A DNA stretch of 64,000 nucleotides, from contig NZ_VFML01000001.1 in the NCBI RefSeq assembly GCF_006715045.1, positions 1,178,001 through 1,242,000 on the forward strand. The letters run 5' to 3'. The translations under genes and the position numbers were made by a program. This stretch comes from Amycolatopsis cihanbeyliensis (lineage in GTDB: Bacteria; Actinomycetota; Actinomycetes; Mycobacteriales; Pseudonocardiaceae). This document shows, piece after piece, positions 1 through 51,981 of the stretch; the first letter of the stretch is position 1; each line of letters starts with the position of its first letter. The notes beneath the pieces were generated by a model that did no database searches, had not been told where the DNA came from, and saw only the letters and a list, made by a program, of their open reading frames with translations.

Positions 1-3000
1 GGCGCCAGCGCCCAGTCCTCGGCAGCCGTCCCGGTCGACGTTTCGAAGCGCCCGAGATAGTTGAACCCGACCTGCGGCGTCGGGAGCTGGGCGAGCGTGG
101 GTGCGGTTTCCGGATTGAGGTAGCGAAGCAGTCCGTAGCCGATGCCGTTGTCCGGCACCGACCGCAGCTGCTCCTTGATCCGCCGAAGCGCCTCGCCCAC
201 GGCGGCGCCGCCGCTCCACACCTGGTCCCAGTCCACCCGGCCGGGGTCGAGTGAGACGGGGTAGATGGTCGTGAACCAGCCCACCGTCCTGGACAGCTCG
301 GCGCGCTCGAAGATCTGCTGCTCACGGCCGTGCCCCTCGGTGGACAGCAGCAGACCCTCGGTGGCGCCACCGAAACGGCTCCGCCGCCAGTCGGCGAAGG
401 CGAGCGTCAGCCCGGTGAGCAGCACGTCGTTGACGGAGGCGTGGAACACCGCCGGCAGGGTGGTCAGTACCGCCGCGGTGGTCTCGGTCGGCAGCGACAT
501 GCTGACCGAACGCAGCGTCCTGGTCAGGTCCCGCGCCGGGTTCACGGCAAGCTCGGCCAGCGGCGCGGGCGCGCCCGAGAGCCGCTGCTGCCAGCCGGGC
601 AACTCGGCGACCCGCTCGGGTCGCCGAGCCTCGTCCACCAGCAGGCGCGCCCACTCCCGCAGGGCCGTACCGACCGGCTCCAGCCGGGCATCGCCCTCCG
701 AACGCTCGGCGTCCCACGCGACGGCCAGATCACCCGGCAGGATGCGCCAGGAAACCCCGTCCACCACGAGGTGGTGCACGGCCAGCAGCAACCGACCACG
801 CTGATCCGGGCCCGCGTCGAACCACACCGCCTGCACCATCGAGCCGCCGTCCGGATCCAACCGGGTGAGCGCCGCCGCACCGTGTTCGACCAGTACGTCC
901 CGGCGTGCGGCCTCGTCCAGCCCGGCGATGTCCACCCGCCGGATCAGATCGGCCGCTCGCACCTGCCCACGCTCCGGGACCTCCAGCGTCCACTCCTCGC
1001 CGCTACGGCGGAGCCGGGCGCGCAGTGCGTCGTGGTGATCCAGCAAGGTCTGCAGCACCCGCGCCAGCCGTTGCTCGTCGAGCTCCGCGGGCGCCTGCAT
1101 CAGCATCGACTGGTTCAGCCGGTCGATCGGACCGCCCCGGTCCCGCAGCCACGCCACGACCGGGGTCATCGGCACCTCGCCGATGCCCGCGTCCGCGTCC
1201 GCTTCCGCGAGGGGCGTGCTCCCCTCCGCCGTGGTCGCCGCCGCGGCGAGCTCGCGGATGGTCCGGTGCCGGAAGACCTCGCGTGGCCCGAACATCAGTC
1301 CCGCCTTGCGGGCGCGGGTCACCAGCTGGATGGCCGTGATGCTGTCGCCGCCGAGGGAGAAGAACCCGTCGTCGACACCGACCTCCGCGACACCGAGCAG
1401 CTCGGCACACAACCGGCACAGCACCGCTTCCTGCTCGGTGCGGGGATGTGTGTCGGAAGCGGGGGCGAGCTCGGGTGCGGGCAGTGCCTTGCGGTCGAGT
1501 TTCCCGTTCGGGGTCAGCGGCAGGCTGTCCAGCGTGACGAGCAACGAAGGCACCATGTAGTCGGGCAACCGACTACTCGCGTACTCCCGGATCGCCTCCT
1601 GGTCGACCGCGCGCCCCGGGGCCGCCACCAGGTAACCGACCAGCCGTTTCGACCCTGGCGCCTGCTCATGTGCGACCACGGCGGCCTGGTCGACGTCGTC
1701 GTGCCGGGCCAGCACGGTCTCGATCTCGCCGGGCTCGATCCGGAAGCCCCGGATCTTCACCTGCTCGTCGGCCCGGCCGATGAACTCCAGCTGCCCGTCC
1801 TGCCGCCAGCGGACCACGTCGCCGGTGCGGTACATCCGCTCCCCCGGCGCGCCGAACGGGTGCGCCACGAACCGCTCGGCGGTCAGCGACGTCCGCTTCA
1901 GGTACCCGCGCGCCAGTCCTGCCCCGGACACGTACAGCTCGCCCGGCATGCCGACCGGAACCTCACACAACGCACCGTCCAGCACGAACACTCGGGTGTC
2001 CCGCACCGGCCTTCCGATCGGGACGCCGCCGCCCGGCAGCAGCGGCTCGCTGATCGTGGCGGCGACCGTCGACTCGGTCGGACCGTAGGCGTTGACCATC
2101 CGCCTTCCCGGCGCCCACCGCCGTACCAGCTCGGCCGAGCACGCGTCCCCACCGACGATCAGGCCGTCGAAGGCGGGCAGGGGCTCGGCGGGCATGCTGG
2201 CCAGCGCCGCGGGCGGGATCAGTGCATGGGTCACCGCGCGGTCGGCGAGTACCCCGGCGAGCACCTCGCCGGCGAGCACCTCCGGCCCCGGCACCACGAC
2301 CGCGGCGCCCGAGAGCAGCGCCATGCACAGCTCCAGCACCGAGGCGTCGAAGCTCGGTGAGGAGAACCGCAGCACCCTGCTGTCGGCGGTGACGGCGAAC
2401 TGTTCGATCTCGGCGGCCGCGAAGCTCGCCAGCCCCGCGTGCGGCACGACCACGCCCTTGGGCACCCCCGAGGAGCCCGAGGTGTAGATCAGGTACGCGG
2501 GCGCACCCAGCGAGAGCGGCGCGATGCGCTCGGCGTCCCCGACCTCGTCGGCCCGGCGTTCGGCGAGCGCCGCCACGGTCTCCGCGGAGTCCAGTGCCAC
2601 CACGGTGGTTCCCTGGACCGTGGGGACCACGCCTGCCGTCTCCTCGGTGGTGAGCACCACGGACGGCTCGGCGTCGGACAGCATGAACGCGATCCGTTCC
2701 GCGGGGTAGTCCGGATCGACCGGCAGGAAGGCCGCGCCTGCCTGCAGCACCGCGACCGAGGCCACCACCGACTCCACCGACCGGCCCAGCACCTGAGCCA
2801 CCACGTGTTCCGGCCCGGCTCCCAGCTCGATGAGGTAACGGGCCAGCCGGGCCGCGCGTTCGGCCAGTTCGGCGTAGCTCAGCGTCACCTCGTCCGACTC
2901 CACCGCCACCGCGTCCGGCGTGCGCGCCAGCTGAGCCGCGAAGAGCTCGGGGAAGGTCGCCGCGGGCACCTCGGCGCCGGTGTCGTTCCAGCGCCGCAGT

Positions 3001-9000: not shown

Positions 9001-10745
9001 TGATCGTCGAGCACGACCCGGTCGGCGGGGCAGGAGTCGGGCAACACCCCCGCCGCGGCCGCGGTCGTCAGCACGAGTGCCGGGTCGGAGTCGGTGAGCA
9101 GGTACGAGATGCGGTCCGCGGGGTAGGTGGTGTCCACCGGCAGGTAGGCGCCGCCCGCCTTCAGCACCGCCAGCATCGAGATCACGAGCTCCGGCGACCG
9201 CGGCAAGGCCAGCGCCACCAGCCGCTCCGGCCCCACTCCGCGCCGGATCAGGAGCCGGGCGAGACGGTTGGCCTCCCCTTCGAGCTCGGCGTAGGTCATC
9301 GTGCGGCCCTCGTAGGACAGCGCGACCTCGTCCGGGTGCTGCCGCACCTGCTCGTCGAACAGTTCGGGAACGGTGGCGCCGTCCTCGCCCGAGCCCGTTC
9401 CCACGCCGAGCTCGAGCGGGTGGGCACGCTCGGCGTCGGCCAGCACCTCGACCCGGCCGACCGGCTGGTGCGGGTCCGCGACGAACGCCTCGAACAACCG
9501 CCGGAACCCGGCCCCGATCGACTCGATCTCCCCGCGCGAGAACACCTCCGGCTGGTACCCGAAGCGCAGTTTCAGCTCGCCGTGCGGCAACGCGGCGATG
9601 CTCAGCGGGTAGTGGTTCGCGTCGTTGCCCACGACGCCGGCCAGCCGCAGGTCGCCGGCGAGCTCCTCGATGTCACCGTCGTCCATCGGGTAGTTCTCGG
9701 TGACGGTGAGGGTGTCGAACAGGGTCGGCAACCCGGCACAGCGCTGGATGTCCGGCAGGCTCAGGTGCTGGTGCGGCAGCAGCGCGGTGGACCGCTCCTG
9801 CACCGCGGTCAGCACGCCGGCCAGCGTGTCGTCCGGCCGTACCGGCACGCGGATGGGCAGGGTGTTGATGAAAAGCCCGACCATCGTCTCGACACCGGGC
9901 AGTTCGGCGGGCCTTCCCGAGACGGTGGACCCGAACACCACGTCGGAGCGGCCGGTGAGGCGGGAAAGCAGCAGCGCCCAGCAGCCCTGGAAAACGGTGT
10001 TCAGCGTGACGCCGTTGCGGCGGGCGGTCTCGCGCACCCCTTCCGCGAGCCACTCCGGCATCGACACCTCGAGCCGGTGCGGTCGTACCGAGGTGCCGGG
10101 CGCGTCCGGGGCCAGCAGCGTCGGCTCCTCCAGGCCACTCAGCGCGCCCCGCCACGCGTTCTCGGCCGCGGGCCGGTCCTGCGCGGCGAGCCAGGAAAGG
10201 TACTGGCTGTACGGCGTGACACGCGGCATCCCGGTGTCGTCCCCGCGCCGGTCGTAGAGCTGGAACAGCTCTCGCATCATCCGCGCGGTGGACCAGCCGT
10301 CCAGGAGTATGTGGTGGCTGTTGAGCATCAGCCGGTTCCGCCGCTCACCCAGCCTGATCAAGGTGAACCGCAGCATCGGCCCCGAGGTCAGGTCGAACCG
10401 GAAGGCGGCCTCCTCCTCCAGCAGCCGGTCCAGTTCGACTTGCCGGCTCCGCTCGTCGAGGTGGCTGAGGTCGACCTCTCGCCAGGGCACGGTCACGTCG
10501 CGCGGGATGACCTGCACCGGCTTGCTCAGCTTCTCGTAGCGGAAGCTCGCGCGCAGGTTGGGATGCCGGCGCAGCAACGCCGCCACCGACTCCCGCATCG
10601 CCTCGCCGTCCAGCGCGCCATCGAGGTCGACAGCCAGCTGGGCGATGTAGACGTCGAGCGCCTGCTCGCCGTACAGCGCGAGGAAGAGCAGCCCTTCCTG
10701 CAGCGGCGACAGCGGCAGTACATCGTCGAAGGTCGACCCAGCCAT
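1..10745 (-). CDS. Non-ribosomal peptide synthetase, modules 5-7 (C-A-T, C-A-T, C-A-T-E), 3' end outside window
   Basis: The frame is open from an ATG at 10745 to the left edge (at least 3,581 codons). Domains by approximate residue: C (HHILLDGW ~145), A5 (TSGSTG ~618), T (LGGHS ~1007), C (HHIVGDGW ~1193), A6 (~1690), T (~2079), C (HHIAADGW ~2262), A7 (~2757), T (LGGDS ~3134), E ([10 protein letters not shown] ~3320; FNYLGRFE at the edge). I read specificity codes by hand against GrsA. A5 is D-A-W-T-V-A-A-V-C (Phe). A6 is D-V-Q-Y-V-A-H-V-V (Pro). A7 is D-A-L-L-I-G-A-V-A (hydrophobic or aromatic, unassigned). The first C domain begins with [14 protein letters not shown], as C domains after an epimerase do, which fits the E domain closing the upstream protein. 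The start codon overlaps the upstream stop (TGATG), so the two are translationally coupled. No thioesterase is seen; release must lie further left. The protein may end just beyond the edge. Confidence 0.96.
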
Positions 10746-39042: not shown

Positions 39043-39261
39043 TCAGGCCGAGCTGGCCTCCATCTCCGCGATCAGGCTCTTGGGACGCATGTCCGTCCAG
39101 TTCTCCTCGACGTAGTCAAGGCAGGCCTGCCTGCTGTCCTCGCCGTACACCGTCGTCCAGCCACTCGGAACCTCCGCGAAGGCCGGCCACAGCGAGTGTT
39201 GCCCCTCGTCGTTCACCAGCACGAAGAAGCTCGCGTCATTGTCGTCAAAAGGGTTGGTCAT
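39043..39261 (-). CDS. MbtH-like protein
   Basis: 72 residues beginning [20 protein letters not shown]. It keeps the family signature: N-x-E-x-Q-x-S-L-W-P ([12 protein letters not shown]), the central GW of [10 protein letters not shown], and the C-terminal TDMRPKSL. MbtH-like proteins bind and activate or stabilise NRPS adenylation domains and are commonly required for those of Hpg- and Tyr-type. It stands alone on the minus strand between two rightward operons, with direct repeats in its upstream region, so it has its own promoter. Confidence 0.95.
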
Positions 39262-39739: not shown

Positions 39740-40762
39740 ATGAGCACGGTGTCCGATACGGCCGTCAAAACCTTGCTGAACGAACCCAGCTCGGTGACGC
39801 TTCGCCCGGGGTACGAAGGCGGAAACATCAACACCGCGATCGGGTTCAAACACGTGTGTTACCTGATCGAACACGCGGTGCTGGACCACTTCCGGGCCAT
39901 CGGACTCGGTGCGACCAAGCTGTACCTCGAGCACGGGTTGAACTTCGATGTGGTCGGGCTGGAGGCTCGCCTGATCACCGTGGTCACCCTCGACGACGAG
40001 GTGACCTTCGACGTGCTGCCGAAATCCTCCGACGGCGACTCCGAACTGCGGTTCGCGGTCACCGGCAGGCTCGTGCGCGGTGGCGAGCGGGTCAAGGCCG
40101 TCGCCGCCAAAGTGACCGTCCGGCTGCGGCAGGACGAAACCGTGGTCGATCCGGATCCGGTTCCGGACGAGCTGGCCCGGTTCGCCACACCCCGGCTGGC
40201 CACGGCGGAGCCGCGGCCACTCGCCTCGTCTCCCGTGGACAACCTCGACCTCACGACAGGCCGCGGCGCGCCCGCTGATGACCCGGTACTCGCCGAGATC
40301 ATCGGGGACACCAACGCGTTCGGCTGGAAGTGGCGAATCCCCTACTACTACTGCCACTTCACCGAGCGCATGCAGATGTCCGGCTACCTGCGCCAGATGG
40401 AGGAGGCGAAGCACCTGTTCGTCGCGTCACGGGGCATCAGCATCAAGAAGCTGCTCGACGAGCGCGGGTGGATCCCGGTGGTCACCCAGTGCAAGCTCAC
40501 GCTCACCGACGAGGCGATCATGGAGGAGGACGTCTACACCGTCTACACGGTGGAGAACATCTTCAAGAACATGCTCTACACCTCGCGGATGGACTGCTAC
40601 GTGGTTCGCGAGGGCAGGCTGGTGCAAACCGCGACCGGCAGCATCGTGCACGGCTACGCCGCGAAACCGCATGCGGCGGCCGAGTGGGAGATGCCGTTGA
40701 CCTTCGACGACCACGTACTCCGCGCCATCCAGGGCACGGACCGGCCGGACGTCAGGGGGTGA
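39740..40762 (+). CDS. Double-hotdog acyl thioesterase-like protein
   Basis: 340 residues made of two hotdog (4HBT-like) halves: about 35-130 (start FKHVCYLIEHAVLDHFRAIG) and 205-330 (start YYYCHFTERMQMSGYLRQMEEA). It heads a rightward operon with the isomerase and desaturase genes that would complete the aromatic acyl chain, so it probably acts on the ACP-bound acyl product: hydrolysis for proofreading, or binding of an intermediate. A dehydratase role is also possible because the fold is shared. Start: ATG 39740; the ribosome binding site (AGGAG, 39727-39731) is good. Confidence 0.8.
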   Translation: MSTVSDTAVKTLLNEPSSVTLRPGYEGGNINTAIGFKHVCYLIEHAVLDHFRAIGLGATKLYLEHGLNFDVVGLEARLITVVTLDDEVTFDVLPKSSDGDSELRFAVTGRLVRGGERVKAVAAKVTVRLRQDETVVDPDPVPDELARFATPRLATAEPRPLASSPVDNLDLTTGRGAPADDPVLAEIIGDTNAFGWKWRIPYYYCHFTERMQMSGYLRQMEEAKHLFVASRGISIKKLLDERGWIPVVTQCKLTLTDEAIMEEDVYTVYTVENIFKNMLYTSRMDCYVVREGRLVQTATGSIVHGYAAKPHAAAEWEMPLTFDDHVLRAIQGTDRPDVRG

Positions 40763-40766
40763 CACC

Positions 40767-41495
40767 GTGGCCGCCGCGAAACGCAACCCACGCTGGTACT
40801 TCTCCCTCCGCAGCCCGTACTCCTGGCTGGCGTACCGGGACCTGGTGACCATGCGCCCGGACGTACTCGACGCGATCGAGTGGCTGCCGTTCTGGGAGCC
40901 GGACGCGCGCACCGAGGAGATACTCTCCGACCAGGGAGTCACCCTGCCGACCGTGGCGATGAGCCGTGCCAAGAACTTCTACATCCTGCAGGACACCCGC
41001 AGGTTGACGCGGGCGCGCGGGCTGCACGACATCACCTGGCCGATCGACCAGAACCCCTGCTGGGAGGTCGCGCACCTGGCCTGGATACTGGCCGACGACG
41101 AGGGGCGAGGCAAGGACTTCGCCGCCGCGGCGTACCGGGCACGCTGGGAGCAGAACAAGAACATCTCCGACCCTGAGGTGATAGCCGAGATCGCGGCCGA
41201 GTTCGGTCTCGACTCGCGGCGGCTGGCCGGCGCGGCCGAGGACGAGGACCTGCGCAAGCGCGGAGCCGCCCTGCTCGAGCGGTCGGCGAGGGACGGGATG
41301 TTCGGCGTTCCGTTCTTCATCAGCGGCAGGGAGAAGTTCTGGGGCCTCGACCGGGTCAGCCAGTTCGTCAGCTCGCTGACCGGGGAGCCCGAGCCGGAGC
41401 CTGCGACGCTGCCGGAACGGGAGCCCGCTCCCGGAACGAACGCGGAGCTGCTTCCGGCCGGTGCGGACGCCGGGCACGCAGGCGGCTGCGGCTGA
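40767..41495 (+). CDS. DsbA-fold isomerase (2-hydroxychromene-2-carboxylate isomerase-like)
   Basis: 242 residues. The thioredoxin-fold N-terminal motif YFSLRSPYSWLA has Ser-Pro in the place of the redox Cys pair, and the C-terminal motif GVPFFISGREKFWGLDRV is typical of HCCA isomerases and kappa-class relatives. The last 40 residues are Pro/Glu/Gly-rich and look disordered. Starts with GTG five bases after the thioesterase stop. In cinnamoyl-lipid biosynthesis such an isomerase turns an E double bond of the ACP-bound polyene to Z so that 6-pi electrocyclisation can close the ring. That role is assigned here by context. Confidence 0.87.
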   Translation: MAAAKRNPRWYFSLRSPYSWLAYRDLVTMRPDVLDAIEWLPFWEPDARTEEILSDQGVTLPTVAMSRAKNFYILQDTRRLTRARGLHDITWPIDQNPCWEVAHLAWILADDEGRGKDFAAAAYRARWEQNKNISDPEVIAEIAAEFGLDSRRLAGAAEDEDLRKRGAALLERSARDGMFGVPFFISGREKFWGLDRVSQFVSSLTGEPEPEPATLPEREPAPGTNAELLPAGADAGHAGGCG

Positions 41496-41535: not shown

Positions 41536-43242
41536 GTGAACACCCAGTCGAACCCGGCGGAACCACGGTCCGAATGGGACGCGATCATCATCGGTGCCGG
41601 GCTGGGTGGGCTGACCTGCGCCGCCTACCTCGCCACCACCGGCCGCCGGGTGCTGGTACTCGAGCAGTTCTCCGTGGCAGGCGGCAACAGTCACGTGTTC
41701 CGGCGGCGCCGCAGGTACGAGTTCGACGTCGGCATCCACTACCTCGGCGACTGCGGGCAGGACGGGATCATCCCCGCGATCCTGAACGGCGTGGGGTTGG
41801 CGGGCCGGACCGAGTTCCTCGAGATGGATCCGGACGGCTTCGACCAGGTCAGGGTGCAGGGACTCGAACTGGACGTGCCCACCGGCTGGTCGCGATACCG
41901 CGAACGGCTGAAAGCCGCCCTGCCGGACGAGGCGGACGCGGTGGACGCGTTCGTAGACATCAGCATCGCGAGTGCCGAGGAACAGCGTTTCGCCCTGCTC
42001 GCGGGCGAAGAGGTAACGCCTGTGGAGCTCGCGAACCAGTGCGGCACCACCCGGCGCTGGGGCAGGCGAACGCTCGACCAGCTTTTCGACCACTGTGGAC
42101 TGTCGGCACGAGCCCGAACGGTGCTCGCCGCGCAGGCCCCGAACTACGGCCTCACCCCACGGCAGGTCACGGTGGGGCGGCACACCTCGGTATTCGACCA
42201 CTACCTGCGCGGGGCGTACTACCCGGCGGGCGGCGGCCAGGTCATCGCGGCCGGGCTGGTCGAGGTCATCGAGGCGCACGGCGGTGAGGTGCGAACCAAC
42301 GCCAGGGTCGAGAAGATCCTCGTCGAGGGTGGCAGGGTGACCGGCGTCGGCCTTGGCGACTCCGAGGTCATCACCGCTCCCCTCGTCGTCTCCAACGCCG
42401 ACTACCGGCGCACCGTGCTCGAGCTCGCCGGCGCCGCGCACTTTCCCGCGAAGACCGTGGATCGCACGCGTTCGGCGGTGATGAGCATGCCGTGGCTGGT
42501 GCTCTACCTCGGCCTGGACACCGACCTACGGGAACGTCCCAACGCCAACCTCTGGTGGTACGACGAGGACATCGACACGTACTTCGACAAGGTGAGCCGG
42601 GGCGAGGCCGACGACGTGCGGTTCCTGTTCGCCTCGTTCGCCTCGCGCAAGGATCCCGACAACCGCACCATCTGTCCGCCAGGGCACGCCAACCTCCAGG
42701 TGATGACCCCCAGTCCCGCCGCGTACCACTGGTGGGGCGTCGAGGGCGGCCCCGCGGCCGGTGTGCCCTACCGGCGCAACCCGACGTATCGGGAACAGAA
42801 GGAATGGTATGTCGAGGCCACTCTCCGTGCCGCGGAGCGCGCCATCGGGCCGTTGCGGGATCACATCACGCATCTCGAGGCGGCGACACCACTGACCCAC
42901 GAACGTTACATCCTTTCCAGCGGCGGAACGCCCTGCGGCCTGGCCGAGTGGGGCAATGCCAAGTGGCCGGACACCGCTACCACCGTCGAGGGCCTGCACG
43001 TTGTGGGTGCGAACACCCGCTACGGCAGTGGCGTCGCGGGCGTCATGGTCAGCGGAATCATGTGCGCGGGCCAGATCCTCGGGCGGCGGCTGCTGTCGGA
43101 GGCGCATCGCGGATCGGTGTTCGGTGAGCCCGCGCTGCTCCCGGAACGGGACCCGGAGTGGGATCCACGGGATGTCTGCCGGGGCGCGGCTCGACGTGGC
43201 CGGGGCGCCACCCGGCGCCGCATGGCGCAAGCGGTGGACTGA
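41536..43242 (+). CDS. CrtI/phytoene-desaturase-like FAD oxidoreductase
   Basis: 568 residues from GTG 41536 with GGAGG nine bases upstream. The N-terminal FAD-binding motif AIIIGAGLGGLTCAAYLA is clear, followed by GRRVLVLEQ, and the C-terminal flavin motif GLHVVGANTRYGSGVAGVMVSG. The fold is that of carotenoid desaturases. Located after the isomerase, it most likely oxidises the cyclohexadiene formed by electrocyclisation to the benzene ring of a cinnamoyl unit. The last 35 residues are Arg-rich. The gene ends at a strong hairpin facing the ketoreductase gene. Confidence 0.9.
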   Translation: MNTQSNPAEPRSEWDAIIIGAGLGGLTCAAYLATTGRRVLVLEQFSVAGGNSHVFRRRRRYEFDVGIHYLGDCGQDGIIPAILNGVGLAGRTEFLEMDPDGFDQVRVQGLELDVPTGWSRYRERLKAALPDEADAVDAFVDISIASAEEQRFALLAGEEVTPVELANQCGTTRRWGRRTLDQLFDHCGLSARARTVLAAQAPNYGLTPRQVTVGRHTSVFDHYLRGAYYPAGGGQVIAAGLVEVIEAHGGEVRTNARVEKILVEGGRVTGVGLGDSEVITAPLVVSNADYRRTVLELAGAAHFPAKTVDRTRSAVMSMPWLVLYLGLDTDLRERPNANLWWYDEDIDTYFDKVSRGEADDVRFLFASFASRKDPDNRTICPPGHANLQVMTPSPAAYHWWGVEGGPAAGVPYRRNPTYREQKEWYVEATLRAAERAIGPLRDHITHLEAATPLTHERYILSSGGTPCGLAEWGNAKWPDTATTVEGLHVVGANTRYGSGVAGVMVSGIMCAGQILGRRLLSEAHRGSVFGEPALLPERDPEWDPRDVCRGAARRGRGATRRRMAQAVD

Positions 43243-43305: not shown

Positions 43306-44052
43306 TCAGATGGTGATCCCGCCGTCGATCTGCAGTACCGAGCCGGTGATGTAGGCGGCCCGATCCGAGACCAGGTACGACACCAGATCCGCGACCTCGT
43401 CGGCCCGGCCGATCCGGCGTAGCGGGATAGTCTCCAGTGCCCGCTCCCGGACCTTGGTGGTGAGGCTCCCGGTCATGTCCGTCTCGACGAACCCCGGCGC
43501 GACGACGTTGGCTCGGATCCCGTAGCGGCCGACCTCCTTGGCCAGCGCCTTGGAGAAGCCGATGATACCGGCCTTGGAGGCGGAATAGTTGGTCTGGGTC
43601 GCGTTGCCGTAGACCCCGGCGACGGACGAGATGTTCACGATGGAACCGGACTTGCGCTTCATCATCTCGAAGATCACTGACCGGCACACGTTGTAGACAC
43701 CATCCAGGTTGGTGTCCAGCACCCCATGCCAGTCCTCATCGGACATCATCAGCAGCGGGTTGTCCCTTGTGATCCCGGCCGATGTCACCACGGCGTCGAT
43801 CGCGCCGAGCTCGCTCTCGGTCCGCTCGATCCAGCCGCGCACCGAGTCCGCTTCGGACACGTCGGCATGGACGGCGAGAACGCGCGCGCCTCGTTCACCG
43901 GCTTCCTTCTCCAGCTCGCGCGCGGCCTCCTCGTTGGAGCGATAGCAAAAGCTGACATCGAACCCTTCCTCGGCCAGCCGGTGCACCACGGCCCGCCCGA
44001 TGCCACGCGAACCGCCACTTACCAGAGCAACCCGAGCTTCGCTCTCTGCCAT
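43306..44052 (-). CDS. 3-Oxoacyl-ACP reductase (FabG-type ketoreductase)
   Basis: 248 residues, classical short-chain dehydrogenase. NADPH-binding SGGSRGIGRAV, catalytic Ser in NISSVAG, YSASK with Tyr and Lys, and PGFVETDM are all present. GGAGAGG lies just before ATG 44052. It is the last gene of the leftward operon (hydrolase, KS-like, ACP, dehydratase remnant, dehydratase, KR) and would reduce each beta-keto intermediate of the type II polyketide chain. It is the only ketoreductase of the cluster in the window. Confidence 0.95.
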   Translation of the reverse strand: MAESEARVALVSGGSRGIGRAVVHRLAEEGFDVSFCYRSNEEAARELEKEAGERGARVLAVHADVSEADSVRGWIERTESELGAIDAVVTSAGITRDNPLLMMSDEDWHGVLDTNLDGVYNVCRSVIFEMMKRKSGSIVNISSVAGVYGNATQTNYSASKAGIIGFSKALAKEVGRYGIRANVVAPGFVETDMTGSLTTKVRERALETIPLRRIGRADEVADLVSYLVSDRAAYITGSVLQIDGGITI

Positions 44053-44074
44053 GTATCCTCTCCGTTCTGGTCCG

Positions 44075-44560
44075 CTAGGACATCGTTACCGGCTCGGCGG
44101 ACCGCAGTACCTCGGCGGGGCGGAACGTCATCACCATCTTGGATACGGTCAGCAGCGGTTCTCCTTCGAGGAGACTCTCGCCTTCGAAGATCACCGTGTC
44201 GCTCAGGGCACGGGTCACCCGAACCCGGTGCTCGGCGACGTCGCCAGGGTAAAGCTTCCGATGTATGTCCACCTCGGACATCGAACCGAACAACATGACC
44301 TCGCCGCTCTGCACTTCCGCGCGGCCCATGCCCGCCAGTATCCCCGCCGACTGGCCCCACGACTCCAGCAGCAACGTCTCCGGGTAGGCGAGGTCCTCCA
44401 CTCGGGCATCCTCGCCTGCGTGGGCGTACCAGGGTTCGTTGCAGGTAACCGCCTTGATCGCGGTGAGTCGCTCACCCGGGACCACGTCGAGGACCTTGTC
44501 CACGAGCAGCATCGGGTACCTGTGCGGCAGCAGCTTCCTGACCTCGGCCGCAGTGATCAT
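44075..44560 (-). CDS. FabZ-like hotdog dehydratase subunit (copy 2)
   Basis: 161 residues, closely similar to the protein at 26867-27364. It has LLPHRYPMLLVDKV and the Glu-containing LLLESWGQSAG. Like copy 1 it lacks the GHFPG segment with the catalytic His; NEPWYAHAGED is in that place, so a His is near but not in the usual motif. Start: ATG 44560, overlapping the stop of the 25-codon remnant of a partner subunit (ATGA). It probably works with the His-bearing subunit encoded at 27348-27752, or alone if the shifted His is competent. Confidence 0.88.
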   Translation of the reverse strand: MITAAEVRKLLPHRYPMLLVDKVLDVVPGERLTAIKAVTCNEPWYAHAGEDARVEDLAYPETLLLESWGQSAGILAGMGRAEVQSGEVMLFGSMSEVDIHRKLYPGDVAEHRVRVTRALSDTVIFEGESLLEGEPLLTVSKMVMTFRPAEVLRSAEPVTMS

Positions 44561-44634
44561 GTTCGGTCCTCTCTCCGGTGCCTCAGCCGGATCGTCGCCG
44601 CGTCCACGGCCACCGGGCTCACCCTGCGACTCAC
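44557..44634 (-). pseudogene. Internally deleted remnant of the His-bearing dehydratase subunit
   Basis: A GTG-initiated frame of 25 codons. Its first ten residues (SRRVSPVAV) match the N-terminus of the dehydratase subunit at 27348-27752 (SGGVSPVAA), and the rest (DAATIRLRHRREDRT) matches that protein's C-terminus (DEAATVRVRYREVTRD). About 110 residues of core are missing. The first 29 bases are largely identical to the intact gene. It keeps the gene order of the intact locus, directly before the Glu-bearing dehydratase, and its ends overlap both neighbours (GTGA with the ACP stop, ATGA with the dehydratase start), so it may still be translated and serve as a coupling leader. Confidence 0.8.
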
Positions 44635-44888
44635 GACTCGCGCAATTTCCCCTGCAGCAACCCATGAGCCGCGCGCAGGGTCCGAACCGAACGCATCTCG
44701 GTCTCGGTGAACTTGACCCGGTACTTCTTCTCCAGGGCGACGACGACCTCCAGCGCGAGCAGCGAGTCGACCTGGAGGTGGTCGATGAAGTCGGTGTCGT
44801 CCGACACCTGGGTGGGTTCCACGTCGATCACGTCGGCAAGCGTGACGCGGAGCTCTTCCTTGTCGAGTGTTTCCTCGGGAATGGTCAT
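44631..44888 (-). CDS. Acyl carrier protein 1
   Basis: 85 residues. The phosphopantetheine Ser lies in HLQVDSLLALEVV, with the acidic helix II typical of type II ACPs. It sits between the Cys-less KS-like gene (46 bases upstream) and the dehydratase remnant. It carries the growing acyl chain. A second ACP is encoded at 50439-50696, so separate ACPs may serve two chain-building stages. Confidence 0.93.
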   Translation of the reverse strand: MTIPEETLDKEELRVTLADVIDVEPTQVSDDTDFIDHLQVDSLLALEVVVALEKKYRVKFTETEMRSVRTLRAAHGLLQGKLRES

Positions 44889-44934: not shown

Positions 44935-46047
44935 TCACCGGTTCCCGCCGAGCAGCCTCAGCACGGCACAGGCGACGGTGCCGTCGGGGTCCACCGAGGT
45001 GACCACGGCCGCCTCACCGCTGGCCTCGGTGGCACGCTCGGCCACGCTGAGCACCGACACCAGCTGGAAGGTGGCGGACGCTCCGGAGGTGTCGCCGAGC
45101 CTGCTCAGATCCGGGACCCGCCGCAGGGCCGGTGCCTCGAACAGCTCGCCGAGCACTTCACTCTCGTAGCGTCCGGCGGCTCCGGGCGGGCCACTCGGCA
45201 CCACCGCCCACGCGTCCCGCGCGGCGAGGCCGGACCGATCCAGGGCACCGCGCACGCAGGCGTCCAGCACGATACGCAGGTCTCCCTCGAGGTACACCCT
45301 GGACTCCACGGCGAGGATCTCGGCAAGCGGCTGCCTTCCGTGTCCCGCGGGCGAGGGCGGTTCGACCAGCAGAACCGCTCCCCCCTCACCGAGCACCGTG
45401 CCGGCTGCCTCCTCGCCGCGGCTGTGGTGCTCCAGCCAGGCACGCGCGTGGCTGTACTCCTCCGCGCCGGCGCAGAGGACCTCGCCCGCGCGTCCCGTCG
45501 CCAGCAACCTGCCCGCGTACTTGAGCGCGAACAACCCCGCGGTCCGGCCACCCGCGATCGTGGTGTTCGGTCCCTTGAGCTGGTGCCAGATCGCGCATTG
45601 CCCGGCGGCACAGTTCATCACGGCATTGGGCATCCGGGCCGGGTCAACGTAGAAGGGTTTGTCGGCCGTCAGCGAGTCGCGGGTGAAGTCCATCATGCTC
45701 TGCGCGCTACCGGTCGTGGTGCCGAGCACAAGCCCGGTCCGCTCCCCCGTCTCGATCAGCCGGTTGCCGTCCACGTCATTGAGCAACCCGCCGACGGTGG
45801 CCACGGCGAGCCCGGTCACCCGATCCATCGAACGAGTCCCCTTCTTGCCGAGGACCTTCCTGAGGTCGAAGCCCGGAACGAGACCGGCTCGGCCGACCGG
45901 CACTTGCCACTGCTCCGCGTCGAGGTCGGTCACGGCGTCCCGCCCCGAGCACAGGCCCTCGACGTAGGCCTCACGGCCAAAGCCGAACGGCGAGACGGCG
46001 GACCAGTTCGAGATGACCGGATTCGTGGCGGCGGTCCGCGCGGTCAT
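44935..46047 (-). CDS. Ketosynthase-like protein without catalytic Cys or His (second KS-beta)
   Basis: 370 residues with ketosynthase-like N-terminus (SNWSAVSPFGFG) and the LKGPNTTIAGG region, where the active-site Cys should follow; it is replaced by Gly (AGGRTAG). HGTGT is replaced by PSGPPGAAGRYES. The C-terminal KS motif reads LGDTSGAS. It therefore cannot condense by itself. It begins at 46047, overlapping the hydrolase stop (ATGA). By analogy to chain-length factors it should pair with an active ketosynthase, perhaps the one encoded alone at 50731-51981, giving two KS/KS-like pairs in the cluster. Confidence 0.85.
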   Translation of the reverse strand: MTARTAATNPVISNWSAVSPFGFGREAYVEGLCSGRDAVTDLDAEQWQVPVGRAGLVPGFDLRKVLGKKGTRSMDRVTGLAVATVGGLLNDVDGNRLIETGERTGLVLGTTTGSAQSMMDFTRDSLTADKPFYVDPARMPNAVMNCAAGQCAIWHQLKGPNTTIAGGRTAGLFALKYAGRLLATGRAGEVLCAGAEEYSHARAWLEHHSRGEEAAGTVLGEGGAVLLVEPPSPAGHGRQPLAEILAVESRVYLEGDLRIVLDACVRGALDRSGLAARDAWAVVPSGPPGAAGRYESEVLGELFEAPALRRVPDLSRLGDTSGASATFQLVSVLSVAERATEASGEAAVVTSVDPDGTVACAVLRLLGGNR

Positions 46048-46922
46048 GAGTTCCCTCCAGCGGATGGTTCGGTTACCTTGCCGGACAGACTCGGCCGGTG
46101 TCCCAGGGTGTCCAGGAAGTGATGCACGATCGCCGCGAATCGGTCGGGTTCACGCAGCATCGGGAAGTGGCCGCAGCCATCGAGCAGCTCGGCGGTCCCC
46201 GCCGGCAGGTCCTCGGCCAGCGCGACGCCCTCCTCAGGCGGGACCGTGGTGTCGTCGGCGCCCACGATCACCTTGCACGGCAAGGTGATCAGCTCGGTGC
46301 GCAACAGCGGGGTGCGCAGGTAGGTATCCAGGAACCTGACCCAGCCATGGGGGCCCACCCGCTCGCAGACCCGCAGCGCCAGGTCGTCGAGCAGCTCCGG
46401 GTCGATCGACCGGGTGGCATGCATCCGGATGCCCTCGCGCATCGTGTGTTCGAACCGGGCTATCAGGTCGCCGAGCGCCGACCACCGGAAGTCCTCCACC
46501 TCCCGCCGGTAGAACGGGGACACCAGGACCGCGCCGGCGAGGCCGTAACGATGGCGAATGTCGGCGGCTCGGCGGTTCAGCAGCTCGACGAGGAGGTTGG
46601 CCGACATCGAGTGGGCCACCACCAGGTCGACCCCGCCGGGAACCCTGGTGAGCGCGGACTCGATCCACCGGCTCGGCTCACCCTCGTGGCCCCATACCGG
46701 GTCGCCGTCGTTGCGCCACGGCAGCTCGGCCGTCCACACCTCGGCCCGCGCGCGCCACCGGTCGACGAAACCGTCCCACACGGCCCCGCTGTTGGCGAGC
46801 CCGTGCAGCAGGAGGATCCGCGGACCGGCCCCACTCCCCGGGCCCGCGTTCCTGCGGTCGACCGTCAGGGGTGACACGTCCGGCGACGGCCGTGTGACCA
46901 GGCCGGACGCTGTCGGGCTCAT
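46044..46922 (-). CDS. Alpha/beta-hydrolase
   Basis: 292 residues from ATG 46922 with GGGAGG before it. Oxyanion motif LLLHGLANSGAVW, nucleophile Ser in VVAHSMSANLL, acid Asp in VIVGADDTTVP and His in GCGHFPML complete the triad. It heads the leftward ketoreductase operon. Likely a thioesterase or hydrolase acting on acyl-ACP or a shunt product; the substrate cannot be read from the sequence. Confidence 0.88.
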   Translation of the reverse strand: MSPTASGLVTRPSPDVSPLTVDRRNAGPGSGAGPRILLLHGLANSGAVWDGFVDRWRARAEVWTAELPWRNDGDPVWGHEGEPSRWIESALTRVPGGVDLVVAHSMSANLLVELLNRRAADIRHRYGLAGAVLVSPFYRREVEDFRWSALGDLIARFEHTMREGIRMHATRSIDPELLDDLALRVCERVGPHGWVRFLDTYLRTPLLRTELITLPCKVIVGADDTTVPPEEGVALAEDLPAGTAELLDGCGHFPMLREPDRFAAIVHHFLDTLGHRPSLSGKVTEPSAGGNS

Positions 46923-47334: not shown

Positions 47335-49398
47335 ATGAATCTCGTCACAACCTTGGACGGGTCGCACGCCGAAAGGCCCGATGACGCAGGTACCGAGCCG
47401 TCCCGTCGCCGCCCGCCTTGGTTGTCGCCGGTGGGCCAGCCGAGTTGGGCCCGGCCGGCCCTGCTGCTCATAGCCGCCGTCAGCGCGGTGGTGTACGGAT
47501 GGGACCTCACCACCAGGCTCTACGGATCCGCCGACGTCTACCTGGCGACGGTGCGCAGCATGTCCGAGAGCTGGTCGGGCTTCCTGTTCGGCGCTTTCGA
47601 CCCCGCCGCATCGATCACCCTGGACAAGATACCCGGGGGGCTCTGGCCCGCCGCGCTGTCCGCGAGCATCTTCGGCTTCGACACCTGGTCCGCCTTACTG
47701 CCACAGGTGATCGCGGCGGTACTGACGGTGCTCGTGCTGTACCGTGTGGCGCGCCGGCTGGCCGGTCCCGCGGCCGGGCTGCTCGCGGCCGGCGCCATGG
47801 CGGCGATGCCGGTCGCGGCCGCGCTGGCGCATGTCACCTGGCCGGACACCTTCCTGACCCTGCTGCTGGCGCTGGCCGCCGACGCCGCCCTGCGCGCCAT
47901 CAGCACCGGTAGCCTCCGCTCGCTGGTCCTTGCCGGGGTATGGGTCGGTCTGGCCACCCACGCGAAGATGCTCGTGGCCTGGGGGACCCTGCCCGCGCTG
48001 GCCGTCGCGTACCTGGTGGCGGCACCGCCGAAACCACTGCGCCGCCTCGCCCATGTCGGCATCGCCGGAGCGGTCACCATCGCCGTGTCCAGCGTCTGGC
48101 TGGTGATCGTGTCGCTCACCCCGGCCAGCAGCCGCCCCTACATCGACGGCACCACCGACAACGACCCGTTCAGCATGGTGTTCGGGTACAACGGGTTCTC
48201 GATCTTCTCCGCCGGGCAGGGCAGCCGGACGGACACGCCCTTCGAGACCGGTCTGCTGCCGACCCTGTTCGGCTCGATGGCACCGCAGGCCATGTGGCTG
48301 TTCCCGGTGGCACTGATCGGGCTCGTGTTCGGCCTTGCCAGCAGGGCCCGCGCGGCCCGAACCGACCTGCTCCGTGCCGGCCTGCTGCTGTGGGGGTTGT
48401 GGCTGGTCACCTTCGGTGCCGTGTTCAGCACGGCTGTCGTCAACCATGTCGCGTACTCCATCGTGCTCGGGCCAGGACTCGCCGCCCTGTTCGGCGTCGG
48501 GCTGGTGCTCCTGTGGCGCGCCTACCGCGAGGGCGGATGGCAGGCGTGGCTGCTTCCCGCGGCGATCGCGGCCACGGCTGTCTGGTCGATCGTCGTTTCC
48601 GGACGCTTCGACAACTTCCTGACCTGGCTGGCTCCCGCGACCGCGGTGTTCGGCGGCCTCGCCGTCGTGCTGCTCGCCCTGGCGAGGGTTCTCCCCCGGG
48701 TACCGAAGCCCGCCGTCCCCGCCGGGGTGGCGACCGGCCTTGTCGCCATGCTCCTCGCTCCGGCGGCCTGGACCGTCGCGACCACGGACAAGGCCGCCTA
48801 CTCGGGAATCATGGCCAACCCGGCGGCCGGCCCCATGGGTGCCGAGCTGCAGTACGCGGATCTTCCGGCCGACCAGAAGCAGAGCATGCTGGCCGCGCTG
48901 GAGAAGCAGGCCGAGATGATCGTGGCCAGCATGGAGCAGAGCGGCGGCAGGATGCTGTCGCCCGAAGGGCAGGCACTGTTGCGGCACGCGCGGTCGGGCA
49001 CGGACGGCCAGAAGTACCTTTTCGCCACCCCCGACTCCGGGCTGGCCTCGGCCTTCATCATCGAGCACGGGGCAAGCATCCTGCCGATCGGCGGCTTCGT
49101 CGGCGACATCCCGTTCCCTGCCGAGCGGGACTTCGTCCGGCACGTCGAATCCGGCGACCTGCGGTACGTGGTCGACCGCGCGCAGCCGCCGAACGCACCC
49201 GCCCCCGGTGGCACCGCGGGCACCACCACGGCGCAGCGGAACCTCGCCTGGGTCAAGCAGCACTGCACCCTGGTCGATCCGGAAGAGTACTTCCAGCTTC
49301 CCGGCGCCCAGCCCGGCGGTGGCGGAGCGGGCGCGCAGGCGCAGCCTGGTCCCCGCACGCGCTGGATGCTGTACGACTGCGCCGGGCGCCAGGGCTGA
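47335..49398 (+). CDS. GT-C (ArnT/PMT-like) polyprenyl-phosphate-dependent glycosyltransferase, copy 2
   Basis: 687 residues, a paralogue of the protein at 29174-31150. Shared pattern in the first outer loop: SWSGFLFGAFDPAASITLDK here against DWQAFLFGSMDLSNTVTIDK there, each followed by a Trp-Pro motif. About eleven hydrophobic segments, a soluble C-terminal domain from about residue 500, and a Gly/Ala/Gln-rich stretch near the end. Predicted to transfer a sugar (mannose is the commonest in related peptide clusters) from a lipid carrier to the product on the outer membrane face. First gene of the rightward operon with the type II thioesterase, ACP 2 and KS. No Shine-Dalgarno is seen before ATG 47335, which may be leaderless. 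Confidence 0.9.
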   Translation: MNLVTTLDGSHAERPDDAGTEPSRRRPPWLSPVGQPSWARPALLLIAAVSAVVYGWDLTTRLYGSADVYLATVRSMSESWSGFLFGAFDPAASITLDKIPGGLWPAALSASIFGFDTWSALLPQVIAAVLTVLVLYRVARRLAGPAAGLLAAGAMAAMPVAAALAHVTWPDTFLTLLLALAADAALRAISTGSLRSLVLAGVWVGLATHAKMLVAWGTLPALAVAYLVAAPPKPLRRLAHVGIAGAVTIAVSSVWLVIVSLTPASSRPYIDGTTDNDPFSMVFGYNGFSIFSAGQGSRTDTPFETGLLPTLFGSMAPQAMWLFPVALIGLVFGLASRARAARTDLLRAGLLLWGLWLVTFGAVFSTAVVNHVAYSIVLGPGLAALFGVGLVLLWRAYREGGWQAWLLPAAIAATAVWSIVVSGRFDNFLTWLAPATAVFGGLAVVLLALARVLPRVPKPAVPAGVATGLVAMLLAPAAWTVATTDKAAYSGIMANPAAGPMGAELQYADLPADQKQSMLAALEKQAEMIVASMEQSGGRMLSPEGQALLRHARSGTDGQKYLFATPDSGLASAFIIEHGASILPIGGFVGDIPFPAERDFVRHVESGDLRYVVDRAQPPNAPAPGGTAGTTTAQRNLAWVKQHCTLVDPEEYFQLPGAQPGGGGAGAQAQPGPRTRWMLYDCAGRQG

Positions 49399-49461: not shown

Positions 49462-50223
49462 ATGACCCGTGCGTCGGGTTCGACAGTGCTGCGTCCGCTA
49501 CCGCGGCCGGACGCGGAGCGGGTTCTGGTCTGTCTCGGCTATTCCGGCGGGGGCACGGCCACCTTCCGGCCATGGGCGTCCGTGCTGCCCGAGGACGTCG
49601 AGCTGGCCATCGTCTGCTACCCGGGGCGGGAGGGCCGGTTCACCACGCCGTTCGCGCGCAGCTGGGACGAGTTGATGGTCGACGTGCTGGCCTCGGTGCG
49701 CCCGCTGACCACCCGCCCCTACATGTTGCTCGGTCACAGCCTCGGCGCGTGGGTGGCCTTCGAGGCCGCTTCCCGGCTCGAACGAGCAGGAACGGCCCCG
49801 GAGTCACTGGTGGTCTCGGCATCCGAGTCCCCCATCGACTGCCAGGCCAACCCGTACCCGCGGACGCCGTGCCCCGAGAACACCGACGAGGAGTTGCTGG
49901 CCTGGATGCGTGATGCCGGGCAACTGCCCGAGGTCATCCACTCCGACCCCGACCTCAGGGAGATCGCGGTCGAGCTGCTCAGGGCGGACATGCGGGTGAG
50001 CCGGTCCTACCGCTACCGCCACGGCACCACCGTCAGCGCACCGATGCAGGTGCTCTACGGCGAGGACGACAGCTCCGTCGGAGCCGAGGACGCGGAACGG
50101 TGGCGGCTGGTGTCCTCCGGGCCATTCCAGATAACGAGAATGCCAGGCGGACACTTCTACACCGACGATATTTGGGCACGACTACCGGAACAGATCGACA
50201 TTCAGGGAAATTTGGTCAAGTAG
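49462..50223 (+). CDS. Type II thioesterase
   Basis: 253 residues. Nucleophile Ser in LLGHSLGAW, Asp in LYGEDDSSV and His in MPGGHFYTDD, with the N-terminal LGYSGGGTATFRPW typical of external thioesterases of NRPS/PKS clusters. It removes wrong or stalled acyl groups from carrier proteins. It lies 63 bases after the glycosyltransferase. Confidence 0.94.
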   Translation: MTRASGSTVLRPLPRPDAERVLVCLGYSGGGTATFRPWASVLPEDVELAIVCYPGREGRFTTPFARSWDELMVDVLASVRPLTTRPYMLLGHSLGAWVAFEAASRLERAGTAPESLVVSASESPIDCQANPYPRTPCPENTDEELLAWMRDAGQLPEVIHSDPDLREIAVELLRADMRVSRSYRYRHGTTVSAPMQVLYGEDDSSVGAEDAERWRLVSSGPFQITRMPGGHFYTDDIWARLPEQIDIQGNLVK

Positions 50224-50438
50224 GGTTCGTTTTTTGTACCGCGCACTCGACCCGGCGCGGCGGTCGAGCGGTGCCGCATGGTCACCGTCCACGCCGGGCG
50301 GCGCCGTGCCGACACGAGGGCACTTCGCGGGACGTATCAGAAAGTTCGAACACCGATTGCGGGGCGGCCACAAATTCTGTGTGATCTGGGTACAACCACC
50401 GCACGACACGCTGTTCGACTCGAAGGAGTAGACGCAAG

Positions 50439-50696
50439 GTGACTACCTCAATCAACGCCGAGCGCATGGCCCAGATCAAAGAAATTGTCTGCGACATTCT
50501 CGAGCTCGAGGAGGAAGAGGTCACACAGACCAGTCTCTTCAAGGAAGAGCATGACGCCGACTCACTGCTGGCGATCGAGATCCTGGCTGCACTCGAGAAG
50601 CAGTTCGGAGTACTGATCGACCAGACCGAGCTCACCCGGATGGTGAACCTGAAGGGCGTGTACGAGGTCGTCACCGAGGCGATCGAAGCGAGCTAG
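50439..50696 (+). CDS. Acyl carrier protein 2
   Basis: 85 residues from GTG 50439 with AAGGAG ten bases upstream. The phosphopantetheine Ser lies in EEHDADSLLAIEIL. Helix I is very acidic. It is followed 34 bases later by an active ketosynthase gene, its likely partner, and preceded by the type II thioesterase gene. Confidence 0.93.
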   Translation: MTTSINAERMAQIKEIVCDILELEEEEVTQTSLFKEEHDADSLLAIEILAALEKQFGVLIDQTELTRMVNLKGVYEVVTEAIEAS

Positions 50697-50730
50697 TTGA
50701 CCAGGGTGACCGGTCGGAGGAGGGAGGACG

Positions 50731-51981
50731 ATGACGTCAACGTGGCGCGACGCTGACACGAGCACCACGGCACGGCGAGTCGTGCTTACCGGGTTCGGTG
50801 TTTTCTCGAGCATCGGCATCGGCGCCGAGGAGTTCGCCGAAGGTCTGCGCCACGGGCGTTGTGGGGCCCGGCCGATCACCGTGTTCGACACCGAGGGGTT
50901 CGCCCACTCGAATGGCTGCGAGGTGGTCGGCTTCGAGCCGGAGAAGTGGATCCACAATCTCCCCGTGGACAAGCTCGGCCGGGCGAGCAGGTTCTCTGTC
51001 GCGGCCGCCCGGATGGCCATCGAGGACGCCGGCCTCAGTGCGGAGCAGCTTCGGTCCCAGCTCGGGGTGATCTCCATCGGCACGACCGACGGCGAGTCTC
51101 ACGATCTCGATCACCTGGTGGGAATGGAGGTCGAGAGCGGGCCGGAGAGCATGCGACCGGACATCGCACGCCGGATATCGCCTGAGCGGCTCTCGCTGTG
51201 CATCGCGCAGGAGTTCGGCCTGTCCAACGTCGAGGCCGCCACCATCGCCACGGCCTGCTCGGCAGGCAACTACGCCATCGGGCACGGATATGACGCGGTG
51301 CGTTCGGGAGAGGCGGACTACGCCCTGTGCGGAGGTGCCGACGCTATGTGCCGCAAGACCTTCACCGGCTTCTACCGGCTCGGCACGATCGCACCGGACG
51401 TCTGCCGTCCGTTCGACAAGGACCGCAAGGGGATCCTGACCGGAGAAGGCGCGGGCATCATGGTGATGGAGAGCCTGGACTCGGCGCTGGCTCGTGGTGC
51501 GCACATCTACGCCGAGGTGCTCGGGTACGGCCTGAACTGTGACGCCTTCCACCAGGTCGCACCCGACCAGTCGAGCGTCGCCAGATGCATGGGGCTCGCA
51601 CTCGACAACGCCGGAGTCAAGCCACACGAGGTCGACCTGATCTCCGCACACGGAACGGGCACCAAGGCCAACGACGTGACGGAGATCCAGGCGATCCGGG
51701 ACGTGTTCGACGACACTCCGCCCCGTACGATCTCTCTCAAGTCGATGCTGGGGCACACCATGGGCGCGGCGAGCGCACTCGCCGCCATCGCCTGCTCGCT
51801 GGCGATCAAACATGGGTTCATCCCACCCACGATCAACCACCGGGAGACGGACCCGGAGTGCGAGATCGACTGCGTGCCGAACCAGTCGGTGGAGGCCGAC
51901 CTGCGCATCGTGCAGAACAACGGTCTGGCGTTCGGCGGCAACAACTCGATCGTGGTCCTCGGTAAGCATCAGGCTTCCTGA
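50731..51981 (+). CDS. Type II beta-ketoacyl-ACP synthase, second active copy
   Basis: 416 residues with the full triad: Cys in ATACSAGN, His in SAHGTGTKANDV, His in KSMLGHTMGA. Strong ribosome binding site (GGAGGAGGGAGG). No chain-length-factor gene follows it; its partner may be the Cys-less protein encoded at 44935-46047, or it may act as a homodimer. It marks the apparent right end of the biosynthetic genes, because the next 1.1 kb codes for nothing clear. Confidence 0.94.
   Translation: MTSTWRDADTSTTARRVVLTGFGVFSSIGIGAEEFAEGLRHGRCGARPITVFDTEGFAHSNGCEVVGFEPEKWIHNLPVDKLGRASRFSVAAARMAIEDAGLSAEQLRSQLGVISIGTTDGESHDLDHLVGMEVESGPESMRPDIARRISPERLSLCIAQEFGLSNVEAATIATACSAGNYAIGHGYDAVRSGEADYALCGGADAMCRKTFTGFYRLGTIAPDVCRPFDKDRKGILTGEGAGIMVMESLDSALARGAHIYAEVLGYGLNCDAFHQVAPDQSSVARCMGLALDNAGVKPHEVDLISAHGTGTKANDVTEIQAIRDVFDDTPPRTISLKSMLGHTMGAASALAAIACSLAIKHGFIPPTINHRETDPECEIDCVPNQSVEADLRIVQNNGLAFGGNNSIVVLGKHQAS

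Follow-up and report, generated by a model that had tools for sequence, protein, structure and literature searches.

The 64,000-nucleotide window analysed here, i.e., the whole stretch of Amycolatopsis cihanbeyliensis DNA presented above (C1:1178001-1242000, where C1 and C2 are the two contigs of a 7.4-Mb genome), carries much of a biosynthetic gene cluster that we read as complete and as probably specifying a decadepsipeptide that carries a cinnamoyl-type N-acyl group and belongs to the nyuzenamide/epoxinnamide line. We examined 144 kb, comprising the window plus 60 kb leftward and 20 kb rightward, with negative coordinates denoting positions left of the window, and identified parts by Pfam, PDB and NCBIfam searches of the predicted proteins. 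These searches recovered every part listed in the original prediction, namely nonribosomal peptide synthetase (NRPS) modules, two ketosynthases (KS), two KS-like proteins, two acyl carrier proteins (ACP), a ketoreductase (KR), three dehydratases (DH), an isomerase, a desaturase, HmaS, HpgT, two GT-C glycosyltransferases and a carbamoyltransferase. The cluster continues leftward in the same genome to about -19.1 kb (C1:1158919), and this extension, which the original prediction had proposed as a check, supplied the remaining modules and the thioesterase (TE) in a third, three-module NRPS gene (N3), as well as two more cytochromes P450 and two ABC exporter pairs. We place the cluster boundaries at the exporter gene at -19.1 kb and the ketosynthase gene that ends at 51981 (~71 kb); the core consists of three NRPS genes with ten modules and a single terminal TE. 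Outside it, at the left border (L010:17518-19586), lie asparagine-synthase-like and PqqD genes, a set that we take to be lasso-peptide-like.

NRPS genes, type II KS, KR, DH and ACP genes, and a polyene isomerase gene occur together in one cluster, the combination that characterises clusters for cinnamoyl-containing nonribosomal peptides (CCNPs) in PMC6510318 (cited, like all papers marked "extract," from part of its text). Moreover, the carbamoyltransferase gene and both GT-C genes stand among acyl, 4-hydroxyphenylglycine (Hpg) and MbtH genes that are common to other such clusters. Gene content thus supports the earlier proposal of a single cluster for a cinnamoyl-type acylated nonribosomal peptide.

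Seven modules are visible inside the window, with four adenylation (A) domains detected by Pfam in N1 and three in N2. Their codes, extracted by alignment to the GrsA core, read DFWNVGMVHK, DAYHLGTTFK, DGGKVGVINK and DILQLGLVWK (N1, modules 1-4), DAWTVAAVCK, DVQYVAHVVK and DALLIGAVAK (N2, modules 5-7), and DILQLGLVWK, DAATLAAVCK and DAWTVAAVCK (N3, modules 8-10). Thr, Gly, Phe and Pro were assigned from code tables, and Hpg and Tyr by comparison with the Streptomyces iranensis line, in which the Hpg2 code is DAYHLGTSFK and the Tyr9 code is identical to that found here. The predicted backbone is acyl-Thr-Hpg-X-Gly-Phe-Pro-X-Gly-Tyr-Phe; the first seven positions are as originally proposed, and Gly-Tyr-Phe-TE completes them. 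Because the first His of its motif is lost, the epimerisation (E) domain of module 4 is probably inactive, which would be harmless after Gly.

The ancestry of the assembly line was assessed domain by domain against 22 modules with a clear A3 motif (10 from S. iranensis, 3 from Streptomyces hygroscopicus, 5 from the WS9326A-type locus of Streptomyces griseus BIG105, and 4 from Saccharothrix). Nyuzenamide domain order, residues and occurrence in S. hygroscopicus NBRC 13472 were taken from PMC8880029 (extract); the S. iranensis module order agrees with epoxinnamide as described in PMC9321520 (extract), and we infer that S. iranensis is an epoxinnamide producer. The best match of all ten condensation (C) domains was the same-position module of the nyuzenamide-type line (58-69% identity). 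S. iranensis supplied this match for eight modules; for modules 6 and 7 it came from S. hygroscopicus, and S. iranensis ranked next. More specifically, the starter C domain was 58% identical to its positional counterpart versus 29% for the next match, and in a family-wide search of 390 genomes (148 with a match, its own included; four candidates scored per genome), the best identity outside its own genome among the matches listed was 48%, below the 58% of S. iranensis. The A domains at positions 2, 5, 6, 8 and 9 likewise matched their positional counterparts best, and at position 1 the counterpart was tied with a second Thr domain. The module 4 A domain had the module 8 Gly domain as its top match, those of modules 3 and 7 were nearest to Saccharothrix, and that of module 10 was nearest to a Phe-type domain, in a comparison that lacked S. 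hygroscopicus module 6 and held one WS9326A-type entry of nearly whole-protein length. Because the C domains match by position and these A domains do not, we conclude that A domains were exchanged at positions 3, 7 and 10 on a kept C-domain frame; on this comparison, the assembly line belongs to the nyuzenamide/epoxinnamide line. Recombination of A domains is documented (PMC9205934, extract).

The resemblance to nyuzenamide and epoxinnamide (PMC8880029, PMC9321520, extracts) extends to ten modules with E domains after modules 4, 7 and 9 and a terminal TE, to the 4+3+3 gene split of nyuzenamide, and to Thr1, Hpg2, Gly4, Phe5 (nyuzenamide), Pro6, Gly8 and Tyr9. In contrast, the A domains at 3, 7 and 10 are replaced, position 10 carrying a Phe-type code (DAWTVAAVCK) rather than Asn, the module 4 E domain is degenerate, the gene order is rearranged, and a CrtI-like desaturase, two GT-Cs and a carbamoyltransferase are added. 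A ramoplanin-like placement on the strength of Hpg was dropped, the C-domain comparison placing the line with nyuzenamide. The original prediction saw two families joined in one product; the cluster does not unite unrelated families, because Hpg is already part of the nyuzenamide/epoxinnamide line, of which this NRPS is a member.

Features of the cluster and their coordinates (negative values lie left of the window; CLF, chain-length factor; T, thiolation domain)
Feature	Position	Strand	Remarks
NRPS N3	-14437..-2702	-	C-A-T, C-A-T-E, C-A-T-TE
Repeat partner	-5701..-3989 (L009:14299-16011)		in module 8
NRPS N2 (3682 aa)	-303 (C1:1177697)..10745	-	C-A(Phe)-T, C-A(Pro)-T, C-A(X7)-T-E
NRPS N1 (4738 aa)	10745..24961	-	C-A(Thr)-T, C-A(Hpg)-T, C-A(X3)-T, C-A(Gly)-T-E; E without first His of motif
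Intense-skew repeat (GRINS-like)	12383..14095		covers Gly A domain of module 4
P450c	25497..26717	+	60/59% to P450 beside N2 in S. hygroscopicus/S. iranensis; taken as the EpcF counterpart, for which acyl-chain epoxidation is proposed
FabA-like dehydratase DHa	26867..27364	-	Pfam
FabA-like dehydratase DHb	27348..27752	-	Pfam
Small hydrophobic protein, 197 aa	27989..28582	-	no family match; 37-38% homologues in nyuzenamide-type clusters
GT-C glycosyltransferase 1 (ArnT/PMT-like, YkcB C-terminal domain)	29174..31150	+	PMT_2/YkcB_C; D78/D86/K87/D160 kept
KS-like CLF1	31486..32433	-	without active-site Cys
Ketosynthase 2 (KS2)	32430..33569	-	catalytic Cys in NACSA
HpgT-like aminotransferase	33566..34894	-	49-51% to HpgT part of nyuzenamide-type clusters
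HmaS, 4-hydroxymandelate synthase	34979..36061	-	nearest solved chains 7yvv, 2r5v (PCZA361.1)
O-carbamoyltransferase, NovN/GdmN type, 671 aa	36415..38430	+	36415 is the likelier start
Small protein beside carbamoyltransferase	38473..38895	+	without Pfam match; accompanies relatives of the carbamoyltransferase
MbtH-like protein	39043..39261	-	Pfam
Hotdog/thioesterase-like protein	39740..40762	+	weak Pfam match; 50-67% homologue in 4/4 compared clusters
DsbA-fold polyene isomerase	40767..41495	+	DSBA-fold match
CrtI-like desaturase (FAD protein)	41536..43242	+	68% to WS9326A-type locus
Ketoreductase	43306..44052	-	Pfam
FabA-like dehydratase DHc	44075..44560	-	Pfam
Acyl carrier protein 1	44631..44888	-	Pfam
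KS-like CLF2	44935..46047	-	without active-site Cys
Alpha/beta hydrolase	46044..46922	-	42-52% homologues in four compared clusters
GT-C glycosyltransferase 2	47335..49398	+	PMT_2/YkcB_C; 34% to GT-C 1; same acidic residues
Type II thioesterase	49462..50223	+	Pfam
Acyl carrier protein 2	50439..50696	+	Pfam
Ketosynthase 4 (KS4)	50731..51981	+	catalytic Cys in TACSA; 79% to WS9326A-type and to Saccharothrix locus

The two Gly modules, 4 and 8, share a repeat of 1715 bp at 97.1% identity that spans the A domain through the T motif of both (549 of 571 residues equal) and whose GC skew reaches -0.75 and TA skew -0.63; in S. iranensis, modules 4 and 8 are 57% alike. Within the 144 kb, skew beyond 0.4 (GC) and 0.3 (TA) was confined to the two repeat copies. 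Genetic repeats of intense nucleotide skews (GRINS) are defined as stretches of at least 500 bp with >80% identity within the same assembly line and GC and TA skew >0.15 (PMC9899208, extract), and the extracts of PMC9899208 and PMC10394414 apply the term to polyketide synthases (PKSs) and PKS-NRPS hybrids; the pair falls within that definition, here in NRPS genes without PKS domains. In the WS9326A-type locus (L117-L119 joined, 15400-16900), an NRPS-gene stretch has GC skew up to 0.5 and no duplicate in 60 kb, and weaker stretches (0.16-0.25) occur in the S. iranensis and Saccharothrix loci.

Like the line as compared in S. iranensis, the cluster has three P450s, an exporter pair and a bifunctional-type TE. 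P450a (nearest solved structure 8w6z, TamI second; neither 8w6z nor 8fz8 could be traced to a relevant paper) is 59% identical to the S. iranensis gene placed as EpcH, and P450b is nearest to P450sky (4l0e, 643 bits) and 68% identical to the gene placed as EpcB; the Epc placements in S. iranensis were made by position and TamI resemblance. Thus, the Hpg2 and Tyr9 codes, an EpcH-like P450 and a P450sky-like hydroxylase, all features of the nyuzenamide line, are present. One ABC exporter pair is 71/60% identical to the S. iranensis pair. The TE reads LDQ at the site that matches, by eye, Gln125 of Skyxy-TE, where S. iranensis has Glu and the WS9326A-type TE has Ala; because of this Gln, epimerisation of Phe10 by the TE is likely by analogy.

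Fourteen acyl-related genes were compared with four clusters (nyuzenamide-type, S. griseus BIG105 and Saccharothrix). The S. griseus BIG105 locus, termed "cal-like" in PMC6510318 (extract), was best for six (isomerase 69%, hotdog protein 67%, desaturase 68%, KR 78%, CLF2 62%, ACP1 58%) and tied for two (KS4 79%, KS2 59%), but its dehydratases are just 45-52% identical and its C domains are not the closest to those of this cluster. DHa, DHb, ACP2 and the hydrolase were closest to the Saccharothrix locus, DHc to S. iranensis, and CLF1 to both. Since six of the 14 genes are not nearest to S. griseus BIG105, the acyl cassette is a mosaic. The desaturase, which NCBIfam places near CrtI/carotenoid isomerase with a score under the cut-off, had no match in the nyuzenamide-type stretches examined. 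The original prediction allowed a cinnamoyl or a polyenyl cap; because isomerase and desaturase are both encoded, the cinnamoyl type is likelier and we dropped the polyenyl cap. Our guess, from these two genes, is a WS9326A-type acyl group.

The carbamoyltransferase matches NovN (824 bits) and GdmN (810 bits) over nearly its full length, and its closest protein among the 7998 candidates scored (those sharing most words, as in the protein search with GT-C 1) was 68% identical (Amycolatopsis sp. NPDC051716). In a genus survey of 80 genomes, its own included, 68 held a relative at E 1e-40, and six others at 54-60% identity were inspected in context: two lie beside 3-amino-5-hydroxybenzoic acid (AHBA)-type genes (L104, with a DegT aminotransferase and dehydroquinase II, and L106), two beside type I PKS genes (L108, L109), and two beside an EryCIII-like glycosyltransferase gene (L105, L107), with L106 judged by eye to resemble L104, and L109 to resemble L108. 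Homologues of the small protein encoded next to the carbamoyltransferase adjoin the relatives of that enzyme in five of these six contexts (not L107); the small protein possibly has an accessory role. Elsewhere, the same genome encodes another two carbamoyltransferases, which are 41% and 46% identical to this one (L110:7396-12636). A carbamoylated sugar, as originally proposed, is one of two candidate outcomes, NovN and GdmN being about equally close. That the carbamoyl group sits, GdmN-like, on a peptide or acyl hydroxyl independently of glycosylation is a tentative reading to which we give somewhat less than an even chance: it accords with the GdmN score and with the AHBA-type and type I PKS neighbours, and a presumably cytoplasmic carbamoyltransferase would favour the aglycone over sugars that GT-Cs, by precedent, add outside the membrane. 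However, two GT-Cs in the same cluster would make sugar hydroxyls available, NovN scores slightly higher, and the glycosyltransferase genes next to the carbamoyltransferase in two of the six genus contexts weigh a little against an aglycone acceptor.

Both glycosyltransferases have the marks of the GT-C class: the predicted structure of GT-C 1 has ArnT (5ezm, 5f15) as its top matches, and D78, D86, K87 and D160 are kept in all 24 aligned proteins (GT-C 1, GT-C 2, and 22 of 119 other listed homologues). A protein search with GT-C 1 lists 120 homologues, the query among them; the others are 43-53% identical and derive from many actinobacteria. Ram29 is a precedent for glycosylation of a peptide by a membrane GT-C (PMC4635501), and the mannosyltransferases Ram29 (ramoplanin), MppH/I (mannopeptimycin) and Dbv20 resemble the present enzymes by description as NRPS-cluster membrane GT-Cs with an acidic motif and a C-terminal domain. 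In contrast, kitacinnamycins receive their sugar on the oxidised end of the acyl chain from Kcn28, a soluble GT-B enzyme using UDP-sugars (PMC6510318, extract), and glycosylation alone was therefore dropped as a novelty. Neither GT-C gene nor the carbamoyltransferase gene was found by tblastn (40% coverage) in any of 80 listed isomerase loci (at least 80 exist) with up to 10 kb on each side, several ended by contig ends; HmaS plus HpgT occurred in three of these loci and HpgT alone in one more. The three genes also had no match in four related clusters examined over 58-100 kb, and in the 60 kb examined of the WS9326A-type locus, HmaS and HpgT had none either.

The original prediction knew of no described CCNP so decorated. 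Glycosylated members do exist, and no carbamoylated one was found in open-licence PMC papers by their titles and abstract starts (extracts); membrane GT-C decoration and carbamoylation thus appear new among CCNPs. This novelty is uncertain because a 2025 JACS CCNP-mining paper (cited in PMC13144596) may describe further decorated members. The full proposal, a product glycosylated outside the cell by two lipid-phosphate-sugar GT-Cs, carbamoylated, and the first such CCNP on both counts, we consider an even proposition.

Several observations weigh against the overall assignment. The codes of modules 3 and 7 give no residue, and the residue after the catalytic Ser of the TE is Gln versus Leu98 in Skyxy-TE. 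The acyl genes point to several relatives rather than one. HmaS and HpgT share no more than 41-51% identity with the nyuzenamide-type set. In the 144 kb, we found no PF01070 oxidase (Hmo family), no Hmo fusion, and no match for S. iranensis queries for prephenate dehydrogenase and putative EpcG (Gly alpha-hydroxylase), which recover S. hygroscopicus counterparts at 94% and 93%, respectively. The GT-C 1 model is mediocre (pLDDT 77.5), and relatives of this protein (36-59%) occur in 36 of the 47 isomerase-bearing genomes (from 50 of the 80 loci) that were searched whole, with distance to the isomerase measured within 10 kb.

Because GT-C 1 relatives are so widespread, the two GT-Cs could serve cell-envelope substrates, e.g., in self-protection, or the decoration genes could be passengers, leaving an undecorated, plain nyuzenamide-family CCNP. 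The absence of all three genes from the stretches examined in S. hygroscopicus and S. iranensis would fit such a product. We nevertheless consider it unlikely: each of the three genes is flanked by genes common to other CCNP clusters, and the carbamoyltransferase belongs with NovN and GdmN, while in the genus its six closest relatives adjoin genes for PKS, AHBA-type enzymes or glycosyltransferases. A pair of neighbouring or fused clusters, one for an acylated Hpg peptide and one for an unrelated glycosylated product, would suit the mixed gene origins (nyuzenamide-like NRPS, mosaic acyl genes, HmaS and HpgT most similar to another set in the same genome) but is very improbable, since Pfam revealed no second core biosynthetic set among the genes scanned from -19 to 52 kb and the three extra genes, which lie inside this cluster, are dispersed among acyl and Hpg genes.

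For the preferred assignment, Hpg supply is the weakest link of Hpg2, though the code nearly matches S. iranensis. HmaS scored 401 bits against 7yvv, 387 against 2r5v, 250 against 3zgj and 226 against 1t47; 3zgj and 1t47 are labelled 4-hydroxyphenylpyruvate dioxygenase (HPPD), and an ordinary HPPD identity is disfavoured by the higher score of 2r5v. Because 7yvv, too, bears the HPPD label and the sole NCBIfam model is 4HPPD, passed at 358 bits, the HmaS call rests mainly on 2r5v and the HpgT neighbour. Both proteins are 68% identical to a second pair in the same genome (C1:1689584-1708514, with its HmaS at C1:1690914-1691972). That pair adjoins two NRPS-like genes (3544 and 1914 aa), a layout reminiscent of nocardicin. 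Of the Hpg pathway, the cluster encodes HmaS and HpgT; with neither an Hmo-family gene nor a prephenate dehydrogenase found across the 144 kb, Hpg supply would need a gene elsewhere. The genome holds two full-length PF01070 genes, neither in a peptide cluster by eye: C2:791493-792545, which aligns at 42% identity across 278 residues with the Hmo portion of the Hmo-HpgT fusion in S. iranensis and is perhaps the missing Hmo, and C1:2208401-2209471 (37% to the same portion).

From gene content, module order, positional orthology and motifs, we infer the following chemical steps and final structure. An alkenyl-cinnamoyl chain would arise from the action of two KS/CLF pairs together with the KR, the three dehydratases, the isomerase and the desaturase; the starter C domain would place this chain on Thr1, and the ten modules would assemble Thr-Hpg-X-Gly-Phe-Pro-(D)X-Gly-(D)Tyr-Phe. 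By analogy, the P450sky-like enzyme may hydroxylate carrier-bound residues (Phe5/Tyr9), the EpcH-like P450 may cross-link Hpg2 and Tyr9, and the TE may epimerise the last residue and close the lactone on Thr1. During or after ABC export, the two membrane GT-Cs would transfer sugar from polyprenyl-phosphate donors at the outer face, a step suggested by the resemblance of the GT-C 1 fold to ArnT and by the example of Ram29, and the carbamoyltransferase would add carbamoyl to a hydroxyl of sugar or aglycone.

From this cluster we predict a peptide that bears sugar and carbamoyl groups, in a family whose compounds include antifungal, cytotoxic and antiangiogenic ones (PMC9321520, PMC8880029, extracts). 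It also offers a natural case of module editing, in which one frame of ten C-domain positions works with A domains that differ at 3, 7 and 10, and its repeat allows direct study of exchange between two Gly modules. If this reading is true, a decorated bicyclic cinnamoyl-decapeptide would represent a new nyuzenamide branch with ramoplanin-style surface glycosylation, built by A-domain replacement.

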